NCBI GenBank assembly: GCA_001045525.1
Contig: LDWW01000009.1
Span: 1-64,000 of the forward strand
Reading direction: 5' to 3'
DNA: 64,000 nt
Source of the DNA: Chitinispirillum alkaliphilum
GTDB lineage: Bacteria; Fibrobacterota; Chitinivibrionia; Chitinivibrionales; Chitinispirillaceae
Within the stretch, counting starts at the first letter, position 1, and each line of letters opens with the position of its first letter. A model generated the notes under the pieces. It worked only from the letters and a program-made list of their open reading frames with translations, was not told the origin of the DNA and did not search any database. The position numbers were made by a program, and so were the translations under genes. This document shows, piece by piece, positions 24,265 through 48,889 of this stretch.

Positions 24265-25284
24265 TTATCCCCACCACTCCGACTTGGACTCTCTCATCAT
24301 AAGATCCCTTACCGCTTCCTTTGCAGGTTTGTTTTCAAAAAGGACCTTGTAAACCTCTGTGGTAATTGGCATTTCTATGTTCATCTTTATTGACAGTTCA
24401 TAGACAGATCTTGTAGTCTCAACTCCTTCTGCTACCATGGTCATGTGTTCAAGAGCCTGCTGGAGATTATAGCCTTTTGCAATAAGTTCACCCATTTGCC
24501 GGTTTCTGCTGTGTTGGCTGATGCAGGTGGTAATGAGGTCACCGATGCCGGCAAGACCGCTGAACGTTGAATCTTTTGCTCCCATCGATCTCCCTAAACG
24601 CATCATTTCTGCGATGCCTCTGGTCATCAGTGCACCTTTGGTGTTGTCACCAAACCCCATTCCGTCACTGCTGCCCGCAGCAATTGCAATCACATTTTTT
24701 ACACTGGCGGCAAGCTCGACCCCGCGCATGTCATCATTTGTGTAGATGCGAAAAGTTGGAGTGGAGAACTGTTCCTGCACCAAAAGGGCAAGATCATTGT
24801 TTTCTGATGCCGCAACTACAGTGGTGGGGATATCGCGTGAGACTTCCTCTGCATGGCTTGGCCCTGAAAGAACTGCAATTCTTTGTGCATCCAGATTTGG
24901 AATCACATCCATCACCACATCGGTCATTAACTGGAGTGTTCTGTTTTCAATTCCTTTGGAAGCTATTATCCAGCCCTTTATTTTGTCCAGTGATTCGGGT
25001 TGAACCACCTTAACGATACTTTCCAGTGTTGAACGCATTGTCTGGGAGGGAACTACACAAAGCACAAGTTCTGCCATGTTTACGGCGGTATCTATAGTAT
25101 TGACAACTTCTATCTCCTGAGGGATTTTCACTCCGGGAAGTTTGGATGGAAGCTCTCTTCGGGTTTGAAGGAATTCTGCAGCATCGCTGTCATATTCCCA
25201 CATGCAGATTCTGTGACCTCTTTTGTGAAGCAGTACGGACAAAGCAATGGCCCAGCTGCCTGCTCCAAGTATCCCTATATTCAC
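24265..25284 (-). CDS. gpsA: NAD(P)H-dependent glycerol-3-phosphate dehydrogenase GpsA
   Basis: GpsA reduces dihydroxyacetone phosphate to sn-glycerol-3-phosphate, the backbone of bacterial phospholipids. 339 residues, normal length. The Rossmann motif GAGSWAIAL begins at residue 6; the catalytic Lys lies in ELAASVKNVIAIAAG; KGALMTRGIAEM and the FSGLAGIGDLITTC stretch are conserved. It lies 21 nt downstream of der. It is notable beside the sn-glycerol-1-phosphate dehydrogenase-like gene at 42613, which would make the opposite enantiomer. Confidence 0.97.
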   Translation of the reverse strand: MNIGILGAGSWAIALSVLLHKRGHRICMWEYDSDAAEFLQTRRELPSKLPGVKIPQEIEVVNTIDTAVNMAELVLCVVPSQTMRSTLESIVKVVQPESLDKIKGWIIASKGIENRTLQLMTDVVMDVIPNLDAQRIAVLSGPSHAEEVSRDIPTTVVAASENNDLALLVQEQFSTPTFRIYTNDDMRGVELAASVKNVIAIAAGSSDGMGFGDNTKGALMTRGIAEMMRLGRSMGAKDSTFSGLAGIGDLITTCISQHSRNRQMGELIAKGYNLQQALEHMTMVAEGVETTRSVYELSIKMNIEMPITTEVYKVLFENKPAKEAVRDLMMRESKSEWWG

Positions 25285-36680: not shown

Positions 36681-37337
36681 ATGCGACCACTCATAGTTGC
36701 CATCTGTATGCTATCGGTACTTTCAGTGGGATTGTGTGCACAGGATGTGTCAAATGTCTCACTTGCAGTCAGTGATCTTGTGCCACTGGGGGTTACAGAT
36801 CATGAAGCGGCCATTATTTCTGAGCAACTCCGCATAGAACTGATGAAAACACCAATGATTCAGCTCATAGAGCGCACTCAAATGGAGGAAATTCTCAAAG
36901 AACAGGGATTTCAGCAGCTTGGGTGTACAAATAACGCATGTGCTGTAGAGGTCGGGCAGTTGCTTGGAGTCAGAAAAATTGTTGTTGGCAGTATTGGAAC
37001 TGCCGGTAGTTACACGCTTGTGACAGCCAGGATAATTGATGTGTCTACCGGAAAGGTAATAGTAAGTGAATCGGTACGCGACAGGGGAGGAATAGACGGG
37101 ATGCTCAACCGGGGGGTGCAGGAAATTTCCCGGCTAATAAATGTCGCACTGTTTCCTGAACTTGAAGAAGAAAACACAGATGCCCCAAAAAAGAACACTC
37201 GCCTGAGACGAGCACTTGTCTGGGGTGGCACCGGAGCTGTGGTTGTTGGTGCTGGAGTGGCCGCGCTGCTTCTCAGCGGTGAAAATGGTCATGATGATGT
37301 CTCAAACGTTCCTAATACAAGGATCGATCTGCCATGA
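36681..37337 (+). CDS. CsgG/LpoB-like periplasmic protein
   Basis: 218 residues with a signal peptide (MRPLIVAICMLSVLSVGLCAQD). The core (VSDLVPLGVTDHEAAIISEQLRIELMKT, LIERTQMEEILKEQGFQ, GQLLGVRKIVVGSIG) has the alpha/beta pattern of the CsgG and LpoB families, which organise outer-membrane secretion pores or activate cell-wall synthases. A hydrophobic helix (ALVWGGTGAVVVGAGVAALLL) lies near the C-terminus. AAAGGA at 36668 fits the ATG at 36681 better than earlier starts. It overlaps the FISUMP lipoprotein gene by 4 nt. Confidence 0.75.
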   Translation: MRPLIVAICMLSVLSVGLCAQDVSNVSLAVSDLVPLGVTDHEAAIISEQLRIELMKTPMIQLIERTQMEEILKEQGFQQLGCTNNACAVEVGQLLGVRKIVVGSIGTAGSYTLVTARIIDVSTGKVIVSESVRDRGGIDGMLNRGVQEISRLINVALFPELEEENTDAPKKNTRLRRALVWGGTGAVVVGAGVAALLLSGENGHDDVSNVPNTRIDLP

Positions 37338-40300
37338 AAAAAATACTATCAGTTCTTCCGCTTCTGTTTATGGTTGCATTGATCATGTGCGACGACCCCG
37401 GCAGGTCTGTTTCCCACTCGGGAAGATACCCTGTATTTGTTTCGGTAAATGCAACTCCCGTTGAAAATGCCACCTACAAGCTAACCATTACCGCACCGAA
37501 TATGGAGCAGATTGGCCCCGATTCCTATGCCTCGGGTCAAACAATCGAAATTTATGTCCCTGAAGGACTAAACCGTCAATTTCACCTTAAAAGGTATGAT
37601 GAAAACAATGTTTTGATTGATACCGGTTCATTATTCAGGGATATTGGCCCTGGATTAAACGAAATTTCTGATGAAACAGTTTTGATCAATATGGTAAGTG
37701 CTCTTGAAAAACCTGTAATCAGTCAGAATCCCAAAGAAAAAACCAAATATGTAGGTGAGTCTGTCACATTTTCGGTCACCGCAGAGGGCAAATACCTCAC
37801 TTATCAATGGCAAAAAGATGGTGAAAACATTAGTGATGCCACATCCTCCACTCTTACCATTGAAAATGTGGAATTGTCTCATGGCGGAAGCTATCAATGT
37901 GTTGTAAGAAATTCCGCCGGTTCGGTCACCAGTAGTCCTGCTATGCTTTATGTTGTCCATTATAAGTTTGAGCTTGAGAAGGATAATCTTACAATACCAC
38001 TCCTTTATCCTCAGGAAATTCCGTTTGTTTTTGGAAACAACTCATTCTCTCAGATACAGCCAGACCCCAAACTTGCAGCCATTATAGATACAAATCTGTT
38101 CTGGAACAGGCCTGACACCTTTATTACCATTCTGCCCCTGACACTAAAATCCCCTGATTCTGATTACGGAGATCAGATTGATTTCCCGGAAAAATTTACC
38201 ATTACAGCCATCGCGCCAGACGATGGAGAATATCCGGTCGAGCCCACAATTACTTTTTTCAATCCGTTCACCATTTTACAGCCTCAGTATAGAGAATTTG
38301 GTTCTGAAATTGAGTTGAGAATCGGGACAATAAGTGATACCCTCCCTTTGGGGAAGGACCTTACTGTTGAATGGATAAAACACGGTTCGCAACCTGAGAC
38401 ATTACCTGTTTCAGCCCCTTTTCGGGTAATATTGTCTGATATATCTGAAGTTTCTGTCAGTGCGGTGGTATTTGATGCTAAAGGACGCTCAGCTGATCCT
38501 GTGGGGACTCTTATCGAACCAACTGTACACTATCCGACAATTAATATTGTGGATCATTCAGAAGAATACAACATTATAAGCCAGGATGGTCAATTTACAC
38601 TTGATTTGGAAGCTCAAACCATGTCTTCTGTTGCGACTGTAGACTCTCTCTTCTACATTTTAACAGATGATACTACCGAGGTTTCCCTTGGACAAGATGG
38701 CAGGTATACATTTACATATTCCATGGCTGATACCGGTACAACTGTTCTGAGTATATATGTCAAAGACAGCCGCGGGTTAATTTCCAAGCCAACTACAGTG
38801 CAGCTGATCTATCATTATAAGCTGCATACAGTTCTTTTTGATTGGAGATATGAAGGTCCCAACAGCACAGTTGACACAGTTTTAGTACCCGATGCGCACA
38901 AAATTTTAGACACGCCGGCTTCTCCCGAAAGAGTGGAGTATGAGTTTGCGGGATGGTACAGAGATACAGGATATCAGACTCCATGGGTAATTTCTGAAAA
39001 TGAGGTCAGAGAGGATATAACTCTTTATGCCAGGTGGGAAAGGAAAAAGTATTCTGTAACTTTCGACACAGATAGCGGCAGCGCAATTAAATCTCAGACT
39101 GTGGAACATGGAAAGTATGTAGCCAGACCGGAAACAGATCCTCAAAGAGATGGATTTCGCTTTGGTGGATGGTTTACCACAAGAAACCTGAATACAGAGT
39201 TTATGTTTGATGAGACGGCTATTACCAGAGACCGCACAGTATATGCAAAATGGATCAGGGTGCATTCTGTAACTTACGATGTTAATGATGGGAGAGGTGT
39301 CGGTCCGGTCTCTGGGGAACCGCCGGTTGATGAGAACCTGTACCAGAATAGCGAAACCGTTACGGTCCTCAGCGGAAATGCGTTGTCAAGAACGGGTTAC
39401 CGCTTTGAAGGATGGAACACTCAGGCAAACGGCAGTGGCATCCCACGAAAACAGGACGAGGTTTTTACGATGGGTTCAGCTGATATTATCCTGTATGCAC
39501 AATGGAAACCTGTTACCTACACTATTACCTATTACTATAATGATAACAGACAAAGAGTGAAAGAGACTACCTATACCATCGAAGATACTCTCGAAATAGA
39601 GCCAAATACTCTGACCAGATCTGATTACACTTTCAAGGGATGGTATTTCGATGAAGATTTAACCGATTCTGCAATAATAATTTCCGGGCGGGTGGGCGAC
39701 TTTGATCTGCATGCGGGAGGATGGCGCTGGAATAGAACCTTTACTGATGGAGATCGCAATGTCTACGCAACTGTTCGTATCGGAGATCAGATCTGGACAG
39801 TTGAAAACCTCAGAACTACCAGCTACATCTGCGGAACAGAAATATCTCATGTTGAAGACAGTGCCCAATGGATTAACCTTGATAATGAACCAGCCTATTG
39901 TTTTTTCGACAACACAAAAAAGGAAGATCTAAAAAGGAAATATGGGGCACTGTACAACGGGTGGGTTGTTGCGGACAGTAATTCCAAATCACTGGCAAAT
40001 GATGGCTGGCGGGTTGCATCGGAAGAGGACTGGAACAATCTGGCACAATACCTGGGCGGCTATAATGTTGCTGGACATGCGATGAAATCAGAATCCGGAT
40101 GGTTATGGTCTCCGGGCCCTGGACAATGGTCCGGATCTAATGGCAGCAATGAGAGTGGCTGGGCAGGATTTCCGGGGGGGTATCGAATGAAATCATTTTT
40201 TATTCACAATGCCTATGCAAGGATAGGGTACATGGGGTTTTGGTGGAGCGCAATAACAGATTTTGAGGAACCCGCAGCACAATTTGTTAGGCTTGAATCG

Positions 40301-40390
40301 AATAACTCGCATTTAAACACCGGTTTAATGCCCATTAATGCAGGTCTCTCCATCAGGCTTATCAGGGATGTGGATGATATTCATTATTGA
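37334..40390 (+). CDS. Large surface lipoprotein: Ig domain, InlB-type repeats, C-terminal FISUMP domain
   Basis: 1018 residues. Signal peptide with lipobox ALIMC. An I-set-like Ig domain spans ~126-205 (YQWQKDGENI ... GGSYQCVVRN). Other beta-rich segments follow to ~490. Four InlB B-type (Listeria-Bacteroides) repeats span ~495-790, each ending near F.GWY or F.GWN and LYA.W. A FISUMP-like domain (Fibrobacter succinogenes major paralogous domain) spans ~805-1013: IGDQIWTVENLRT, NGW, DGWRVASEEDWNNL, GFWWSA. Probably an adhesin or surface scaffold. Coupled to the CsgG-like gene by ATGA overlap. Confidence 0.88.
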   Translation: MKKILSVLPLLFMVALIMCDDPGRSVSHSGRYPVFVSVNATPVENATYKLTITAPNMEQIGPDSYASGQTIEIYVPEGLNRQFHLKRYDENNVLIDTGSLFRDIGPGLNEISDETVLINMVSALEKPVISQNPKEKTKYVGESVTFSVTAEGKYLTYQWQKDGENISDATSSTLTIENVELSHGGSYQCVVRNSAGSVTSSPAMLYVVHYKFELEKDNLTIPLLYPQEIPFVFGNNSFSQIQPDPKLAAIIDTNLFWNRPDTFITILPLTLKSPDSDYGDQIDFPEKFTITAIAPDDGEYPVEPTITFFNPFTILQPQYREFGSEIELRIGTISDTLPLGKDLTVEWIKHGSQPETLPVSAPFRVILSDISEVSVSAVVFDAKGRSADPVGTLIEPTVHYPTINIVDHSEEYNIISQDGQFTLDLEAQTMSSVATVDSLFYILTDDTTEVSLGQDGRYTFTYSMADTGTTVLSIYVKDSRGLISKPTTVQLIYHYKLHTVLFDWRYEGPNSTVDTVLVPDAHKILDTPASPERVEYEFAGWYRDTGYQTPWVISENEVREDITLYARWERKKYSVTFDTDSGSAIKSQTVEHGKYVARPETDPQRDGFRFGGWFTTRNLNTEFMFDETAITRDRTVYAKWIRVHSVTYDVNDGRGVGPVSGEPPVDENLYQNSETVTVLSGNALSRTGYRFEGWNTQANGSGIPRKQDEVFTMGSADIILYAQWKPVTYTITYYYNDNRQRVKETTYTIEDTLEIEPNTLTRSDYTFKGWYFDEDLTDSAIIISGRVGDFDLHAGGWRWNRTFTDGDRNVYATVRIGDQIWTVENLRTTSYICGTEISHVEDSAQWINLDNEPAYCFFDNTKKEDLKRKYGALYNGWVVADSNSKSLANDGWRVASEEDWNNLAQYLGGYNVAGHAMKSESGWLWSPGPGQWSGSNGSNESGWAGFPGGYRMKSFFIHNAYARIGYMGFWWSAITDFEEPAAQFVRLESNNSHLNTGLMPINAGLSIRLIRDVDDIHY

Positions 40391-42612: not shown

Positions 42613-43662
42613 TCATTTAACGAACTGGGCAAAATAAGAATCGGTGTTTACAAAGTCAATCAGCTTTTTTAGCTTGTGTTTATCAGAGATGATAGTGTAA
42701 TAGTTATCCTTTACACCTGGTGCGTACTTGATAGCTTCAATGAAATCATCTTTACTAAGTGGCTTTTTTGAGACCCTTTCAACAAACCCAGTCTCCTCAA
42801 GTACTTTTTTTATCGTTTTATGCTCGGGATTTTCCTGCAACCAGCTTATTGCATAGGTAGCGATCCCCACCTGTATGCCATGGAGTGAGGGGGTTTTTGC
42901 AACAGTGTCATAGGCGTGAGAAATGAGATGTTCGCTTCCGCTGGCAGGGCGACTTGATCCGCTTACTTCCATGGCAACACCGCTCATAACGAGGCAGCCA
43001 CAGATCAGCCTTAAAAACTCCAGGTCTTTGATATTCTTGTGTTTGTAGTTTACCATGATGTCAACTGCGTTTGTGGAGATAAGTACAGCAAAATCATTTA
43101 CCGGCTCCTGATTCACTCTGTAGGCCAGTTTCCAATCATACACAGCAGTGTATTTTGAAATAAGATCTCCAATGCCTGAGAAGGTATAAAATTCCGGTGA
43201 TTTACGGATAGTTTCTGTATCGATCACAACTCCGAATGGGATTTTTGCCTTCTGGCTTTTCCTTTTGCCCTTAATTACAAGTGATGCTCCGGGAGATGCA
43301 AACCCATCATTTGAAATTGAGGTGGGAACGCTGATAATGGGCAGTTGAAGAATAAAAGCTGCGTACTTGCAGTGATCTATAACTTTACCCCCTCCGATTG
43401 CTACTATGGCCTGAACGTTGGTGGGCAGTGAGAATGCATTTTTTATTACATCCTCCACATCATTGGTTCCGATTGTATCTTCGTAAACCACCTGAATCTC
43501 AGAAGAATCGAATGAGATTGCGAGCTGCTGGCTGAAGAGTTCTTTTAGGCCTGTTCCGTAAAACAATGCAACGCGCGTGAATTGCTCTTTCCTGAGGTAC
43601 TTGCCTAACTTATACATCGCATTGGGTTTTATCCGCAGAAGCGTAGGTATTAAAATTTCCAT
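42613..43662 (-). CDS. sn-Glycerol-1-phosphate dehydrogenase-like enzyme (EgsA/AraM family)
   Basis: 349 residues of the iron/zinc-dependent dehydrogenase superfamily. The dinucleotide region VAIGGGKVIDHCKYAAF, the PTSISNDGFASPGAS block and the metal-binding SGSEHLISHAYD and HGIQVGI histidines follow the G1PDH pattern more closely than that of glycerol dehydrogenase or fermentative alcohol dehydrogenases. G1PDH makes sn-glycerol-1-phosphate from dihydroxyacetone phosphate, the archaeal lipid backbone; bacterial members (AraM) also exist. It is 5 nt downstream of a HAD phosphatase. Confidence 0.82.
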   Translation of the reverse strand: MEILIPTLLRIKPNAMYKLGKYLRKEQFTRVALFYGTGLKELFSQQLAISFDSSEIQVVYEDTIGTNDVEDVIKNAFSLPTNVQAIVAIGGGKVIDHCKYAAFILQLPIISVPTSISNDGFASPGASLVIKGKRKSQKAKIPFGVVIDTETIRKSPEFYTFSGIGDLISKYTAVYDWKLAYRVNQEPVNDFAVLISTNAVDIMVNYKHKNIKDLEFLRLICGCLVMSGVAMEVSGSSRPASGSEHLISHAYDTVAKTPSLHGIQVGIATYAISWLQENPEHKTIKKVLEETGFVERVSKKPLSKDDFIEAIKYAPGVKDNYYTIISDKHKLKKLIDFVNTDSYFAQFVK

Positions 43663-43667
43663 TGTGG

Positions 43668-44444
43668 TCAGTCCAGTTGATCGAGTTCTATTTCTTTGAT
43701 TGAATCAAAAATATAGTCCGGTTTGTAGGGAAACATTGTGGAAGTGTCCTTGTGACTGACTCCTGAGAGCACAAGACAGGTTTTCATTCCAGCTTCCATT
43801 CCCGCAACGATGTCGGTATCCATTCGGTCTCCGATCATCAATGTTTCGCTTCCGATGGCACCAAGCTGTTTAAGCGCAATAGTCATCATTAGTGAATTAG
43901 GTTTACCTATTATATAGGGCTTTTTACCGGTTGCTATCTCTATTGAAGCAAGAATACTGCCGCAGGCGGGCTCGAACCCATCCTCCATTGGGTCTATAAC
44001 ATCGGGATTGGTTCCAATAAATTTCGCACCACCCATAATAAGGCTGATTGCTTTTCTGAGCATATCAAAATTAAACGATTTTGTCTTGCCCACAACTACA
44101 TAATCGGGGTTGTTCTCTGTTATGGAGAATCCAGCTTTGTACAGTTCATTTATAAGACCACCGCCTCCTATGACATAGGCTGTGCCGGCAGGCTGTTGCT
44201 CGTGGAGGAAATCAGCTGTCGCCATTGCAGAGGTGATGAAATTGGATTCATCAATCCCTTCAAAACCCATAATCTCAAGTTTCCTTTTAAGATCAAGGGG
44301 GGTTTGTTCTGAATTGTTGGTAAGAAAAAGAAATGGTGTGCCGGAAGAGATCAGTCTGTTTATAAAATCTTTTGCTCCGGGGACAACTGATTTGCCCCTG
44401 TAAATAACTCCGTCCATATCAGAAATTATATTCTTTATCGCCAT
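43668..44444 (-). CDS. HAD-superfamily IIA phosphatase (NagD-like)
   Basis: About 258 residues. HAD motif I DMDGVIYRG at the start (nucleophile and acid Asp), motif II TNNS, motif III Lys in IIGKPN, motif IV GDRMDTDI. The IIA cap layout resembles NagD and glycerol-phosphate phosphatases. The open frame starts at 44486, but AAGGAAAAG fits the ATG at 44444 (MAIKNIISD). It is directly coupled to the G1PDH-like gene, so a glycerol-phosphate or similar substrate is a reasonable inference. Confidence 0.85.
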   Translation of the reverse strand: MAIKNIISDMDGVIYRGKSVVPGAKDFINRLISSGTPFLFLTNNSEQTPLDLKRKLEIMGFEGIDESNFITSAMATADFLHEQQPAGTAYVIGGGGLINELYKAGFSITENNPDYVVVGKTKSFNFDMLRKAISLIMGGAKFIGTNPDVIDPMEDGFEPACGSILASIEIATGKKPYIIGKPNSLMMTIALKQLGAIGSETLMIGDRMDTDIVAGMEAGMKTCLVLSGVSHKDTSTMFPYKPDYIFDSIKEIELDQLD

Positions 44445-44589
44445 AACTTTCTTTTCCTTGTAATTTTTGTTTATCTCAGGAAACATATTAGTAAAAATAA
44501 GATCTTTGCAGGTTTATGTATAGGTTTTTCTACATGGATCAGGAAATAGAAAAGTTGTTACGGTTTGCTTGTTGTGAGTGGGGAGTAAA

Positions 44590-45813
44590 TCAGATTCCCG
44601 ATCCGCCCCTGCGTTTCTTACTGAAGGAAGAAAGCAGAATTTCATCAAGCCGAAATATCTTCTCCGGAGAATCTGCACTGATGAAAAAGCAATTCCTGTA
44701 GGGTTGAACGGAACTGTGGTTGTAAACTCTAAGCGGGGTAACAAGAAGGATCCCCTCTTTTGATTCCAAAGAAAAGTTAAACTCACCAAGTTTGCTGCTG
44801 AAAGTTTCATAGCTATCCGGCAGTGGCATCATTTTCCTGCTGGCGAATCTTAAAAAGCAGTACTTTTCAGGACATAGTTTATCCTGAAGTGAGCGGGCAA
44901 TGTCACTGACCACATGCCGGGCATTGATTTCAACAACGGGGGAGAGTTGGATCTGGCCATTGTTATCCAGGTATGTATATGAGTCAATTCCAACCGGCCC
45001 GAAATACCCGGCCTTCAAGATTCCCGGCACAAGTGCTTTGATACAGTCTGAGATTGTACTGAGGTGGGAATCAGAAAAGGAGGTTTCAACTGGAGGGAGA
45101 AGTGCTCCGTTGAATGTGCCGTACCTGTTTACTATACACCTGATATGTCTGAGATCTGAATATGAACCATCCGGCTCAATATTGATACTGCTGGAAGTAT
45201 CTGTAAGCCTGTTTCGCCATGGCTCTATAACTGCTGCGCTGTTCTCAAGGTATCCGAATATGCTTTTCTGGTTTATATCTACATCTTTTTTGCTCTTAAG
45301 GTGTATGAATCCAAATCCGCTGCTTCCAAAGTTTGGTTTTATTACCAGGGGGAATGAATTTTCCAGCACTGAAAGTGCATGCTTCAAGTCAGCCCTGGTT
45401 TGTACAAAATAGGAATCGGTATCGCCATAGGGGATACTGTTTGATATGGTACTGAGGAATTCTCTTGAATTGACATATCTTACAGATGGAATTGACGGGT
45501 GTGGTGAAATATCACCAAGCCTGCGGGACAGCTCTGCTGTTTCTTCATCCCATCCCCAGGGTAAAAGCCGGAGATTACTTTCATTTGTTTTGTCGCTGAA
45601 GGGAACCGGCAGATTAAGACCTGCAGTTTGCAGATAACAGAAATGCTCATCGGGAAGCTGTGTTTTCAGAAGTATAAAATCTTCCTCTGTTCCCAGAGGA
45701 AGAAAAAGTGCAGTCATCTCATCTGCCGCACTCCTGATTGCGGCAGATTTAAAAGAGCCCGGAACTAAATCGAAAAGCGCATTGAAATAGAGCAGCCTTG
45801 TATGTTTGCTCAT
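44590..45813 (-). CDS. ATP-grasp superfamily protein
   Basis: 407 residues. The ATP-grasp core shows at LVIKPNFGSSGFGFI (about 156-170), which binds ATP phosphates, and GYFGPVGIDSYTY ... VVEINARH for Mg2+ and ligand binding. ATP-grasp enzymes join a carboxylate to an amine or thiol through an acyl phosphate. The N-terminal ~150 residues and the substrate are not recognised. It lies 9 nt downstream of valS and 145 nt upstream of the HAD gene. Confidence 0.72.
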   Translation of the reverse strand: MSKHTRLLYFNALFDLVPGSFKSAAIRSAADEMTALFLPLGTEEDFILLKTQLPDEHFCYLQTAGLNLPVPFSDKTNESNLRLLPWGWDEETAELSRRLGDISPHPSIPSVRYVNSREFLSTISNSIPYGDTDSYFVQTRADLKHALSVLENSFPLVIKPNFGSSGFGFIHLKSKKDVDINQKSIFGYLENSAAVIEPWRNRLTDTSSSINIEPDGSYSDLRHIRCIVNRYGTFNGALLPPVETSFSDSHLSTISDCIKALVPGILKAGYFGPVGIDSYTYLDNNGQIQLSPVVEINARHVVSDIARSLQDKLCPEKYCFLRFASRKMMPLPDSYETFSSKLGEFNFSLESKEGILLVTPLRVYNHSSVQPYRNCFFISADSPEKIFRLDEILLSSFSKKRRGGSGI

Positions 45814-45822
45814 AATTTCCGC

Positions 45823-48492
45823 TTAGGATGCGTTCTCATAGAGATCGGAAAGACTCCTTTGGAGCTTCTCAAGATTAAGCAGCAGCCCATCCAGTTTTTC
45901 TCTCTCCTTTTGCACAACAGCTTCGGGGGCCCTTGATACAAAATTCTCATTTTCAAGCTTACCCTTTGTTCCGCGGATCATGGATTCCATTTTTGAAATT
46001 TCTTTCTGCAATCGCTCTATTTCAACATTTCTGTCAATCAAACCTTCAAGGCTCAGAAAAATCTGATTACCCATGACAACGGCAGATCCTGAAAATCCGG
46101 GTTTGGAACCATCGATGTCTATAACGGTTTCTGACAATTTAGCAAATTGATTAATGAGAGACTGCTGGGACATCAGCCACTTCTGATTTTTTTCATTTGA
46201 AGGAATAATAACCGCACTGCCGACTTTATCGGGAGGAATATTGTTCTCAGACCGTATGGTTCTAAGGGCAGTAATAACCTCTTTCAAAAGTTTGAAATCA
46301 TTCTCCAGCTGATCGTCAATTCTGCTTTTCTCAGCCTGGGGGTATGAGGCAGTCATAATTGATTCTGCATCCGTTACACCCTCAAAAGAGATATTCTCCT
46401 TCATGTGTGACCATATTTCCTCTGTAAGAAAGGGCATTACAGGATGAAGCAGCTTAAGTACTGATGCAAGAACATACCCCGCCACCGCCAGGGCGTCTTC
46501 CCTTCTCTGAGGGTTTTCTGTCTGGTAAAGGTCGGCCTTTTTTGCTTCAACATACCAGTCACAGAATTCATGCCAGGTGAAATCATATATAAGATGACAA
46601 GCCTCATTAAACCTGAAAGTATTTATGGCATCATTCATACCCGTGGTCAGGTGTTGGAGTTTGCTTAGAATCCAAAGGTCTTCAGCTTTGAGATTTTCGT
46701 TTGGAGGCAGAGATTTAAAAGACACTGCAGATTCAATATTGCTGAGAAGAAATCTGGAGGCATTCCAGAGTTTATTGGCAAAGTTTCTCCCTATATCAAA
46801 GGTGTCTTTGCCAAGAAATACATCGGCCCCCTGAGCTGTAATCATTATCATCGAAAACCTGAGCGCGTCTGCTCCGTAAACGGGAATGATCTCAAGCGGA
46901 TCAATAGAATTGCCCAGAGATTTACTCATTTTCTTTCCGCTTTTGTCTCTGACTGTGCCGTGAAGAATTACATCGGTAAATGGGATTTCCCCTGTAAAAT
47001 GAAGGCCGGCCATAATCATTCGCGCAACCCAGAAGAAAAGAATCTCCGGAGCTGTTGCGAGTGTATCGGTAGGGTAGAACTTCTTCATTGTCTCATTTTC
47101 TTCAGGCCACCCCATAGTGGAAAATGGCCACAGCCATGAAGAAAACCAGGTATCAAGCACATCCTCGTCCTGCTTTAGGGAAGATGAGCCACAGGATGGA
47201 CAAGCCGAAGGGTCAAATTCATCAACTATCGTCTCCCCGCACTCACAGTACCACACAGGTATTCTGTGCCCCCACCATATTTGTCTTGAAATACACCAGT
47301 CGCGGATATTTTCCATCCATTCAACATAAGTTTTCTTCCATCTTTGCGGATAGAACTGAACTTTACCCTCAAGTGCCACTTTCAGTGCAGGCTCGGCCAG
47401 AGGCTTCATTTTTACAAACCACTGATCTGAGTAGTAGGGTTCAACAACTGTATGACAACGGTAGCAGTGACCAACTGAATGTGCGTGGTCCTCTATACTC
47501 TCAACTAAACCCATCTCAGTAAGCTCTTCAACGATTGCCTTGCGTGCGGCAAACCGATCCATACCCTTGTACTTGTCAGGCACCGGACCTGTCATATGCC
47601 CGGTTTCATCCATCACAACAACTGGCTCCAATGAGTGACGCTGTCCCATTCCAAAGTCATTTGGATCATGTGCGGGGGTTACTTTAACTGCTCCGGTACC
47701 AAATTCCTTGTCGACAAAATCATCCTTTATGATCGGGATTTCTCTGTTAACCAGGGGTAATAAGATCTTTTTGTCCAGGACTTCAGTATAACGCTCATCA
47801 CTGGGATTGACCGCAACAGCTGTATCACCAAGCATAGTTTCAGGTCTTGTGGTTGCAACTATTACATACCCTGAGCCATCGGCATAGGGATAGCGGAAAT
47901 GGTACAATTTACCATTTAAATCCCTGTGCTCCGCTTCTTCATCACTGAGAGCGGTCTGACACCTCGGGCACCAGTTGATAATATATTTGCCACGGTAAAT
48001 AAGACCTTCCCTGTACAACTGCACAAATACTTTGCGAACAGCAACCGAAAGGCCTTCATCCATTGTGAATCTCTCGCGCTGCCAGTCGCATGAAGATCCA
48101 AGCTTTTTAAGCTGAGCGGTGATTGTGGCATGATGCTCATCTTTCCACTTCCACACTTCCCGAATAAACTCCTCACGCCCAAGGTCATGACGATTTTTGC
48201 CCTGAGATGAGAGACTCCGTTCAACCACATTCTGTGTTGCGATTCCTGCGTGATCAGTACCCGGCATCCACATAGACTCATATCCACACATCCGCTTGTA
48301 GCGGATAAGGATATCCTGAATAGTGTTATTCAGTGCGTGTCCCATATGTAAAACACCGGTTACATTCGGTGGTGGTATGACTATCGAGTAAGGGGGCTTA
48401 GCTGATTTTTCATCTGCATGAAAATACCCTTTTTTGCTCCAGGTTCTGTACCACTTGTCTTCAACAATCGAGGGATTATACTGTTTTTCCAT
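45823..48492 (-). CDS. valS: Valyl-tRNA synthetase
   Basis: Charges tRNA-Val. 889 residues: class I signature HMGHA (HIGH variant), large editing domain (CP1), zinc-like Cys pairs (CECGETIVDEFDPSACPSC), KMSKSLGNS, anticodon-binding domain and a C-terminal coiled coil (~820-885) typical of ValS. The open frame reaches 48558, but MEKQYNPSIVEDKWY at 48492 is the conventional start. First gene of a minus-strand group with the ATP-grasp gene. Confidence 0.97.
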   Translation of the reverse strand: MEKQYNPSIVEDKWYRTWSKKGYFHADEKSAKPPYSIVIPPPNVTGVLHMGHALNNTIQDILIRYKRMCGYESMWMPGTDHAGIATQNVVERSLSSQGKNRHDLGREEFIREVWKWKDEHHATITAQLKKLGSSCDWQRERFTMDEGLSVAVRKVFVQLYREGLIYRGKYIINWCPRCQTALSDEEAEHRDLNGKLYHFRYPYADGSGYVIVATTRPETMLGDTAVAVNPSDERYTEVLDKKILLPLVNREIPIIKDDFVDKEFGTGAVKVTPAHDPNDFGMGQRHSLEPVVVMDETGHMTGPVPDKYKGMDRFAARKAIVEELTEMGLVESIEDHAHSVGHCYRCHTVVEPYYSDQWFVKMKPLAEPALKVALEGKVQFYPQRWKKTYVEWMENIRDWCISRQIWWGHRIPVWYCECGETIVDEFDPSACPSCGSSSLKQDEDVLDTWFSSWLWPFSTMGWPEENETMKKFYPTDTLATAPEILFFWVARMIMAGLHFTGEIPFTDVILHGTVRDKSGKKMSKSLGNSIDPLEIIPVYGADALRFSMIMITAQGADVFLGKDTFDIGRNFANKLWNASRFLLSNIESAVSFKSLPPNENLKAEDLWILSKLQHLTTGMNDAINTFRFNEACHLIYDFTWHEFCDWYVEAKKADLYQTENPQRREDALAVAGYVLASVLKLLHPVMPFLTEEIWSHMKENISFEGVTDAESIMTASYPQAEKSRIDDQLENDFKLLKEVITALRTIRSENNIPPDKVGSAVIIPSNEKNQKWLMSQQSLINQFAKLSETVIDIDGSKPGFSGSAVVMGNQIFLSLEGLIDRNVEIERLQKEISKMESMIRGTKGKLENENFVSRAPEAVVQKEREKLDGLLLNLEKLQRSLSDLYENAS

Positions 48493-48889
48493 AGATTCTT
48501 TCTCTGCAACGACTATGTTATGTTTTAGTTTATTCTGTCTGAAAATAAGATCAATCAATATACGTATTGAAATCAGTTTAATTACATTGTCCGGTTATGT
48601 TTCAAACTTCTGCAAAAAATTTTAGGAAAGGTTTGGGCAAACTTTTTTGTTGTCGTAAAGCCAACAGGGGATAACTTGCTCTCCTGATACAAATACGCTG
48701 AAGTTTGAATGTTTATAAATATACAATCTGAACGAAGAATAATTTGAGTTATTAGTAACTGTTTAAATGAAAGCAGGTTGTGAAACTTGTGAATAATTAA
48801 TCTTTTTTTGCAGATGACCGGTGCCAATATTGTAATTTTAAGGTTGAGATAGACAATTTTGCCCAATTAATTTTCACCAGGAGGTAAAT
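48493..48889. other. Divergent promoter region between valS and ferredoxin
   Basis: 397 AT-rich bases between divergent genes, no recognisable coding. A 94-codon minus-strand frame (48582-48866) has no homology I recognise. A strong AGGAGG at 48879-48884 serves the ferredoxin gene. No T-box or tRNA-like leader for valS was seen. Confidence 0.35.

Follow-up and report, generated by a model that had tools for sequence, protein, structure and literature searches.

A dehydrogenase–phosphatase gene pair in Chitinispirillum alkaliphilum as a possible fermentative route to glycerol via sn-glycerol-1-phosphate

Genes at the locus

The DNA analysed here (the window) comprises 64,000 nucleotides of Chitinispirillum alkaliphilum, namely positions 1 to 64,000 of LDWW01000009.1, which is contig 9 of an assembly (GCA_001045525.1) of 4,434,773 bases in 160 contigs; the published genome of strain ACht6-1 is described with 160 contigs, 4.43 Mbp and 42.9% GC (PMC4814513). 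The GC content is 42.2% in the window and 44% in other stretches of the genome. As the initial annotation had proposed, the window encodes an enzyme resembling sn-glycerol-1-phosphate (G1P) dehydrogenases next to a HAD-IIA phosphatase: both open reading frames are present, the phosphatase lies upstream in the direction of transcription, and the two are separated by 5 bp (Table 1). The presence of gpsA, whose product makes the other enantiomer, in the same genome was likewise borne out.

Table 1. Features of the window discussed in the text
Feature	Position	Strand	Basis of assignment
G1P-dehydrogenase-like enzyme, Fe-ADH_2 fold, 349 aa	42613..43662	-	PRK00843 (1.2e-72), Pfam PF13685, solved relatives, tree, motif table, model (pLDDT 95)
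NagD-like HAD-IIA phosphatase, 258 aa	43668..44444	-	TIGR01460 above cut-off; sequence and fold likeness to NagD and other HAD-IIA phosphatases
Conserved 407-aa protein, no Pfam domain, same direction, upstream of the HAD gene	44590..45813	-	Order kept in two relatives (G005, G004)
Valyl-tRNA synthetase (valS), start of the same-direction run	45823..48558	-	Named by sequence and valS match in relatives; synteny
gpsA, NAD(P)H-dependent sn-glycerol-3-phosphate dehydrogenase (other enantiomer)	24265..25284	-	PRK00094, 414 bits

The longest open reading frame of the phosphatase spans 43668-44486; the start was placed at the ATG at 44444, as in the initial annotation, because almost every related protein starts there or only slightly away from it. 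The complete order valS, 407-aa gene, HAD gene and dehydrogenase gene is kept in the two relatives named in Table 1, and elsewhere the pair alone is kept. The 407-aa protein, which is possibly a member of the same operon, gave weak ATP-grasp-like matches and is 39-46% identical to its counterparts in these two relatives, where it also lies between valS and the HAD gene. Scans of the locus for consensus promoters and terminators returned no more matches than shuffled sequences did, i.e. chance level, and no arabinose genes adjoin the pair. A protein with a Fibrobacter succinogenes major domain is encoded in the window as well. The surface lipoprotein-like open reading frame of 1018 aa at 37334-40390 combines an Ig domain, Listeria-Bacteroides repeats and a Fibrobacter major domain.

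The dehydrogenase

The dehydrogenase scored 244.8 bits with the archaeal G1P dehydrogenase (G1PDH) model PRK00843, which is under the curated cut-off of 413, and 55 bits with the glycerol dehydrogenase (GldA) model, whose cut-off is 336. Its closest solved relative is PDB 3ce9 (44-45% identity), with MjG1PDH second (30-38%), and its predicted structure likewise resembled 3ce9 most (TM-score 0.95), then MjG1PDH, the G1PDH 5fb3 and AraM, and then GldA. According to the motif table, D166, H245, H249 and H261 are kept together with an SSRPASGSEH motif, and D166, H249, H261 and this motif are invariant or near-invariant within the clade of the enzyme; from the alignment and family knowledge we take D166, H249 and H261 to be metal ligands. 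GldA possesses a GFESGGLAAAH-type motif where the dehydrogenase has SRPASGSEH. The residue following H261 is Ile in the dehydrogenase, Glu in archaeal EgsA and GldA, and Ala in AraM.

In phylogenetic trees, the enzyme fell into a bacterial clade (support 100/99) apart from AraM (99/97), GldA (100/100) and two archaeal references; as the latter are both partial, we make no claim on the deeper branching order. It is neither GldA, AraM nor archaeal EgsA, but a member of a third G1PDH-like clade, which is bacterial and centres on 3ce9. A placement among glycerol dehydrogenases, which the initial annotation had named as a refutation of its reading, was ruled out by models, motif and tree. The suggested AraM-type identity was also ruled out by the tree, in which Bacillus AraM (9h4x) and its relatives form their own clade, although the adjacency of HAD-IIA and G1PDH genes resembles AraL-AraM of B. 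subtilis. Nor does the enzyme group with archaeal EgsA. A search of the literature found no enzyme assay for the 3ce9-type clade. Other families of Fibrobacterota carry two further kinds of G1PDH-like proteins: L104 and L105 form a group sister to the clade of the dehydrogenase, and L106-L108 (435-440 aa) group with AraM.

The phosphatase

The phosphatase exceeds the cut-off of the HAD-IIA subfamily (TIGR01460, 162.8 versus 100.15 bits), and its catalytic motifs DMDG, TNNS, GKPN and GDRMDTD are invariant among relatives. With the NagD equivalog model PRK10444 it reached 274 bits, which is under the cut-off of 368, so that by this measure the predicted enzyme is NagD-like and not NagD proper. 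HAD-IIA enzymes are promiscuous, NagD itself being a nucleotide phosphatase, and known glycerol-phosphate phosphatases fall within this subclass.

The family name of the dehydrogenase may also be misleading. The enzyme might act on another small ketone or aldehyde, such as glycolaldehyde, dihydroxyacetone or a sugar derivative, which the phosphatase would free from a phosphorylated precursor. For instance, the G1PDH annotation of one protein from a halophile conceals a glycolaldehyde reductase, whose pathway also uses a HAD phosphatase (PMC9700705). Furthermore, HAD-IIA and MtnX-like enzymes accept a wide range of phosphorylated substrates, and the clade of the dehydrogenase differs from EgsA at position 263. 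However, the enzyme from the halophile shares only 22.5% identity with true G1PDH, whereas the C. alkaliphilum enzyme retains SRPASGSEH and an identity of 30-38% to MjG1PDH; moreover, the glycolaldehyde reductase model gave it 28 bits, as compared to 245 from that of G1PDH. We therefore regard such an alternative substrate as rather unlikely.

Conservation of the gene pair

Gene neighbourhoods were compared for 80 relatives from named genomes outside the phylum (the best 80 of some 600 or more matches, hence the closest relatives and not a random sample) and for 19 matches in Fibrobacterota. Clustering of the neighbours yielded two dominant groups, both solely at position -1: NagD-like HAD-IIA proteins, and a 220-aa family that corresponds to MtnX-like HAD-IB (TIGR01489). 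According to profile searches of all open reading frames, the gene immediately preceding the dehydrogenase, in the same orientation, encodes a HAD phosphatase in 63 of the clade's 89 non-redundant informative loci, and no such HAD occurs elsewhere in the flanks of any of them; the remaining 26, among them most Lachnospiraceae, have no HAD neighbour. Gaps between the two genes mostly lie between -62 and +98 bp; where the overlap seems larger, as in a few loci, the starts of open reading frames had been over-extended. The slot is filled by HAD-IIA in the Fibrobacterota/Spirochaetota lineage and by MtnX-like HAD-IB in the other phosphatase-bearing lineages. On the tree, the type of phosphatase changes once among the phosphatase-bearing rows, and presence or absence changes 13 times. 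The phosphatase at this position has thus been replaced by a member of a different subclass, and the maintenance of a different phosphatase class in the same slot argues for functional coupling.

Across 168 genomes of Fibrobacterota (presence defined by at least 50% identity for the dehydrogenase and at least 66% for the HAD-IIA orthologue), each gene was found in 14: 13 genomes have both, one the dehydrogenase alone and one the HAD alone. Fisher tests gave p values of 2e-17 over genomes and 3e-10 over genera, which overstate independence because the genomes are related. At the genus level, the same 11 genera possess both genes, and one genome (G029) keeps both on different contigs. The pairing is not due to chance, since it is found again in relatives from many phyla and since within Fibrobacterota the two genes occur together; the functional coupling proposed in the initial annotation is thus supported.

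Could the phosphatase serve as a guard, which clears by-product G1P or stray sugar phosphates and thereby spares lipids or metabolism? Such a detoxifying role was proposed for AraL, a HAD-IIA phosphatase of low specificity (PMC3207120), and misincorporation can occur as PlsY and PlsC accept G1P (PMC13400652). This would, however, leave unexplained why a G1P-making enzyme is retained at all, and why the neighbourhood is strictly one-to-one; furthermore, no PlsY (PF02660), which catalyses the promiscuous step, was detected in the C. alkaliphilum genome. A guard function is, in our estimation, very improbable.

Several other arrangements were encountered along the way. Outside the clade, AraM-type enzymes are also paired with HAD phosphatases: Rubrobacter (L145 1073-5041) has a dihydroxyacetone kinase, a HAD-IIA and an AraM-type gene in a row, and Acidiphilium (L147 2650-6347) an AraM-type gene, a HAD-IIB and glpD. 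In both, the pairing possibly serves the catabolism of glycerol or sugars. In a member of the Caenarcaniphilales (L014 3273-4319), the clade G1PDH gene is preceded at 7 bp by gpsA in place of a phosphatase, such that dehydrogenases forming either enantiomer adjoin each other. On a plasmid of Streptomyces fungicidicus (L143 4231-6789), a distant G1PDH-like gene is situated between a gene of the phosphocholine-cytidylyltransferase family and a CDP-alcohol phosphatidyltransferase, which suggests activation of G1P to a CDP-alcohol. A CDP-alcohol or capsule route was set aside for the clade itself, as no such recurrent neighbour was seen among its loci.

Relation to archaeal-type lipid genes

The initial annotation had also raised the possibility that the dehydrogenase is part of an archaeal-type lipid pathway. 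The corresponding genes do exist in the genome: GGGPS (225 bits, cut-off 162), a DGGGPS-like UbiA (under its equivalog cut-offs) and a GG reductase above its cut-off. However, an archaeal-lipid gene cluster at the locus of the pair was dismissed, as no lipid gene lies nearby and GGGPS follows alaS on another contig (contig 5, 105466-106134; L005 1441-2202). The start of GGGPS lies inside the end of alaS, overlapping its stop, i.e. in an alaS operon. The DGGGPS-like gene is on contig 20 (69996-70832; L006 1444-2280), between lspA/rluD and a cobS-like gene, and is conserved at more than 40% in most relatives of the order and at about 30% elsewhere in the phylum. A single run on the minus strand of contig 3 (about 156944-161212; L157 3445-7713) contains two tandem UbiA genes, a TPR-like secreted protein and a geranylgeranyl-reductase-family protein, and is possibly a second cluster for isoprenoid lipids or quinones, separate from the DGGGPS-like gene.

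Taken as a pathway, these genes would allow the dehydrogenase to supply G1P for ether lipids of archaeal type, with GGGPS and the DGGGPS-like UbiA adding the chains, GG reductase saturating them, and the HAD phosphatase being a side activity. Their co-occurrence in Chitinispirillum and Chitinivibrio is not new, as the three lipid genes were noted together already in 2019 (PMC6431249). The lipid pathway of the FCB group was published in 2020, and there GGGPS and DGGGPS of Cloacimonetes, which were without G1PDH, gave archaeol lipids in E. coli (PMC7852524). Nevertheless, the distribution of the genes speaks against this role. Within the 168 genomes of the phylum, GGGPS occurs in 157, UbiA in 155 and the dehydrogenase in only 14; GGGPS and UbiA were found in all 41 genera, and presence of the dehydrogenase does not track GGGPS (p 0.6). 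Among clade-carrying genomes, 47 of 50 have no GGGPS over the cut-off, the exceptions being two Fibrobacterota (L010, L015) and one Domibacillus, and the dehydrogenase-phosphatase module is therefore independent of GGGPS. In addition, the genes of this putative pathway are scattered over three contigs, and a dedicated phosphatase would drain G1P. The membrane lipids reported for C. alkaliphilum are ornithine lipid, phosphoglycerol and ester fatty acids; the published polar-lipid analysis reports no isoprenoid glycerol ethers and lists two lipid species as unidentified. Owing to the decoupling of the clade from GGGPS inside and outside the phylum, the lipid reading is not favoured, and we consider it unlikely.

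A combination of both functions would place G1P at a branch point, from which the dehydrogenase supplies glycerol formation by the phosphatase and also, by way of GGGPS, the DGGGPS-like UbiA and GG reductase, ether lipids of archaeal type. The phosphatase would then act as a valve. If true, C. alkaliphilum, a bacterium available in culture, would have a mixed membrane with lipids of both handednesses. We judge this quite improbable.

A putative route to glycerol

C. alkaliphilum ACht6-1 excretes acetate, glycerol, ethanol and formate in decreasing amounts, glycerol thus being a main fermentation product, and Chitinivibrio alkaliphilus excretes glycerol likewise (PMC4814513). F. succinogenes, on the other hand, makes acetate, succinate and formate but no glycerol (Table 2 of PMC4814513). 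Where the same genome paper describes central metabolism, it assigns genes to the formation of acetate, formate, ethanol and H2, and none to that of glycerol (PMC4814513). The two glycerol-producing genera, Chitinispirillum and Chitinivibrio, are the ones with the G1PDH, and a large family of Fibrobacter-like genomes (f9), which presumably includes Fibrobacter, is without the dehydrogenase-phosphatase pair. Profile searches of the C. alkaliphilum genome, whose controls were positive in other bacteria, detected neither GlpK nor a MIP channel. Moreover, the dehydrogenase is the sole strong member of the Fe-ADH_2 family in this genome, and a GldA route to glycerol therefore appears to be missing.

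We infer from these observations a two-step route, including its substrate, chirality, direction and flux. In the first step, the dehydrogenase would reduce DHAP with NAD(P)H to G1P; in the second, the adjoining phosphatase would irreversibly remove the phosphate, yielding glycerol and Pi. The pair would thereby re-oxidise NADH and serve as a fermentative electron sink in this strict fermenter, and might be the source of the excreted glycerol, which would leave the cell since there is neither a glycerol kinase nor a MIP-type glycerol channel to take it back. The release of glycerol by the phosphatase, already envisaged in the initial annotation, is a likely outcome.

Several lines of evidence converge on this route: the intact G1PDH signature and metal ligands of an enzyme far from GldA, the HAD gene directly upstream and nowhere else in the flanks, the change of phosphatase class within the same slot, the similar pairings outside the clade, the joint presence of both genes in the phylum, the excretion of glycerol by C. 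alkaliphilum and Chitinivibrio but not by F. succinogenes, and the missing kinase and channel. On the other side stand the score of the dehydrogenase below the PRK00843 cut-off and the Ile after H261, the clade loci that have no HAD neighbour, and the promiscuity of HAD-IIA enzymes. Furthermore, gpsA together with another phosphatase could provide glycerol as an alternative source, and the glycerol-producing species number only two. On balance, we hold the glycerol route to be probable, with considerable room for doubt.

If correct, the pair would account for glycerol as a fermentation product in Chitinispirillum and Chitinivibrio, and it would establish a pathway by which bacteria form glycerol via the “archaeal” enantiomer. 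Bacterial G1PDH genes are counted as evidence in the debate on the divergence of bacterial and archaeal membranes. Should most of them sit in a phosphatase-coupled glycerol route, their presence would say little about lipids. Both enzymes are small and predicted to be soluble, and the glycerol producer itself is available as a culture.

Comparison with known systems

The enzyme families involved are known, and their pairing is known only from AraL-AraM; in the open-access literature, we found neither a description of the pathway nor a paper linking G1PDH with a glycerol-1-phosphatase. The nearest solved protein, 3ce9 from C. acetobutylicum (NP_348253.1), belongs to the same clade as the dehydrogenase, and its deposited name “glycerol dehydrogenase” is unsupported, as this clade goes with the G1PDHs and not with GldA. 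Archaeal EgsA, represented by MjG1PDH (4rgq), shares the fold, the metal ligands and the SNDG and SRPASGSEH motifs, but forms a separate clade with Glu where the C. alkaliphilum clade has Ile or Leu after the ligand His. Unlike EgsA, the C. alkaliphilum enzyme has a phosphatase as its genomic partner instead of lipid genes.

In B. subtilis, AraL precedes AraM (PMC3207120), the position of araM being taken from the name of the operon. The pair described here has the same order, phosphatase then G1PDH, with a phosphatase of the same HAD-IIA subclass. In contrast, AraM is Ni-dependent, lies in a separate clade and is encoded in an arabinose operon of a genome with PcrB.

Regarding the phosphatase, Rv1692 and mammalian PGP share its HAD-IIA subclass and fold and hydrolyse glycerol phosphate, but at about 28-29% identity and with the opposite enantiomer; we know of no dehydrogenase partner for either. 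The logic of the proposed route is comparable to that of yeast GPD1/GPP1 and other DHAP routes, in which DHAP is converted to a glycerol phosphate that is subsequently dephosphorylated. While these routes operate with unrelated dehydrogenases and sn-glycerol-3-phosphate, the C. alkaliphilum pair would follow the same two steps through the opposite enantiomer.
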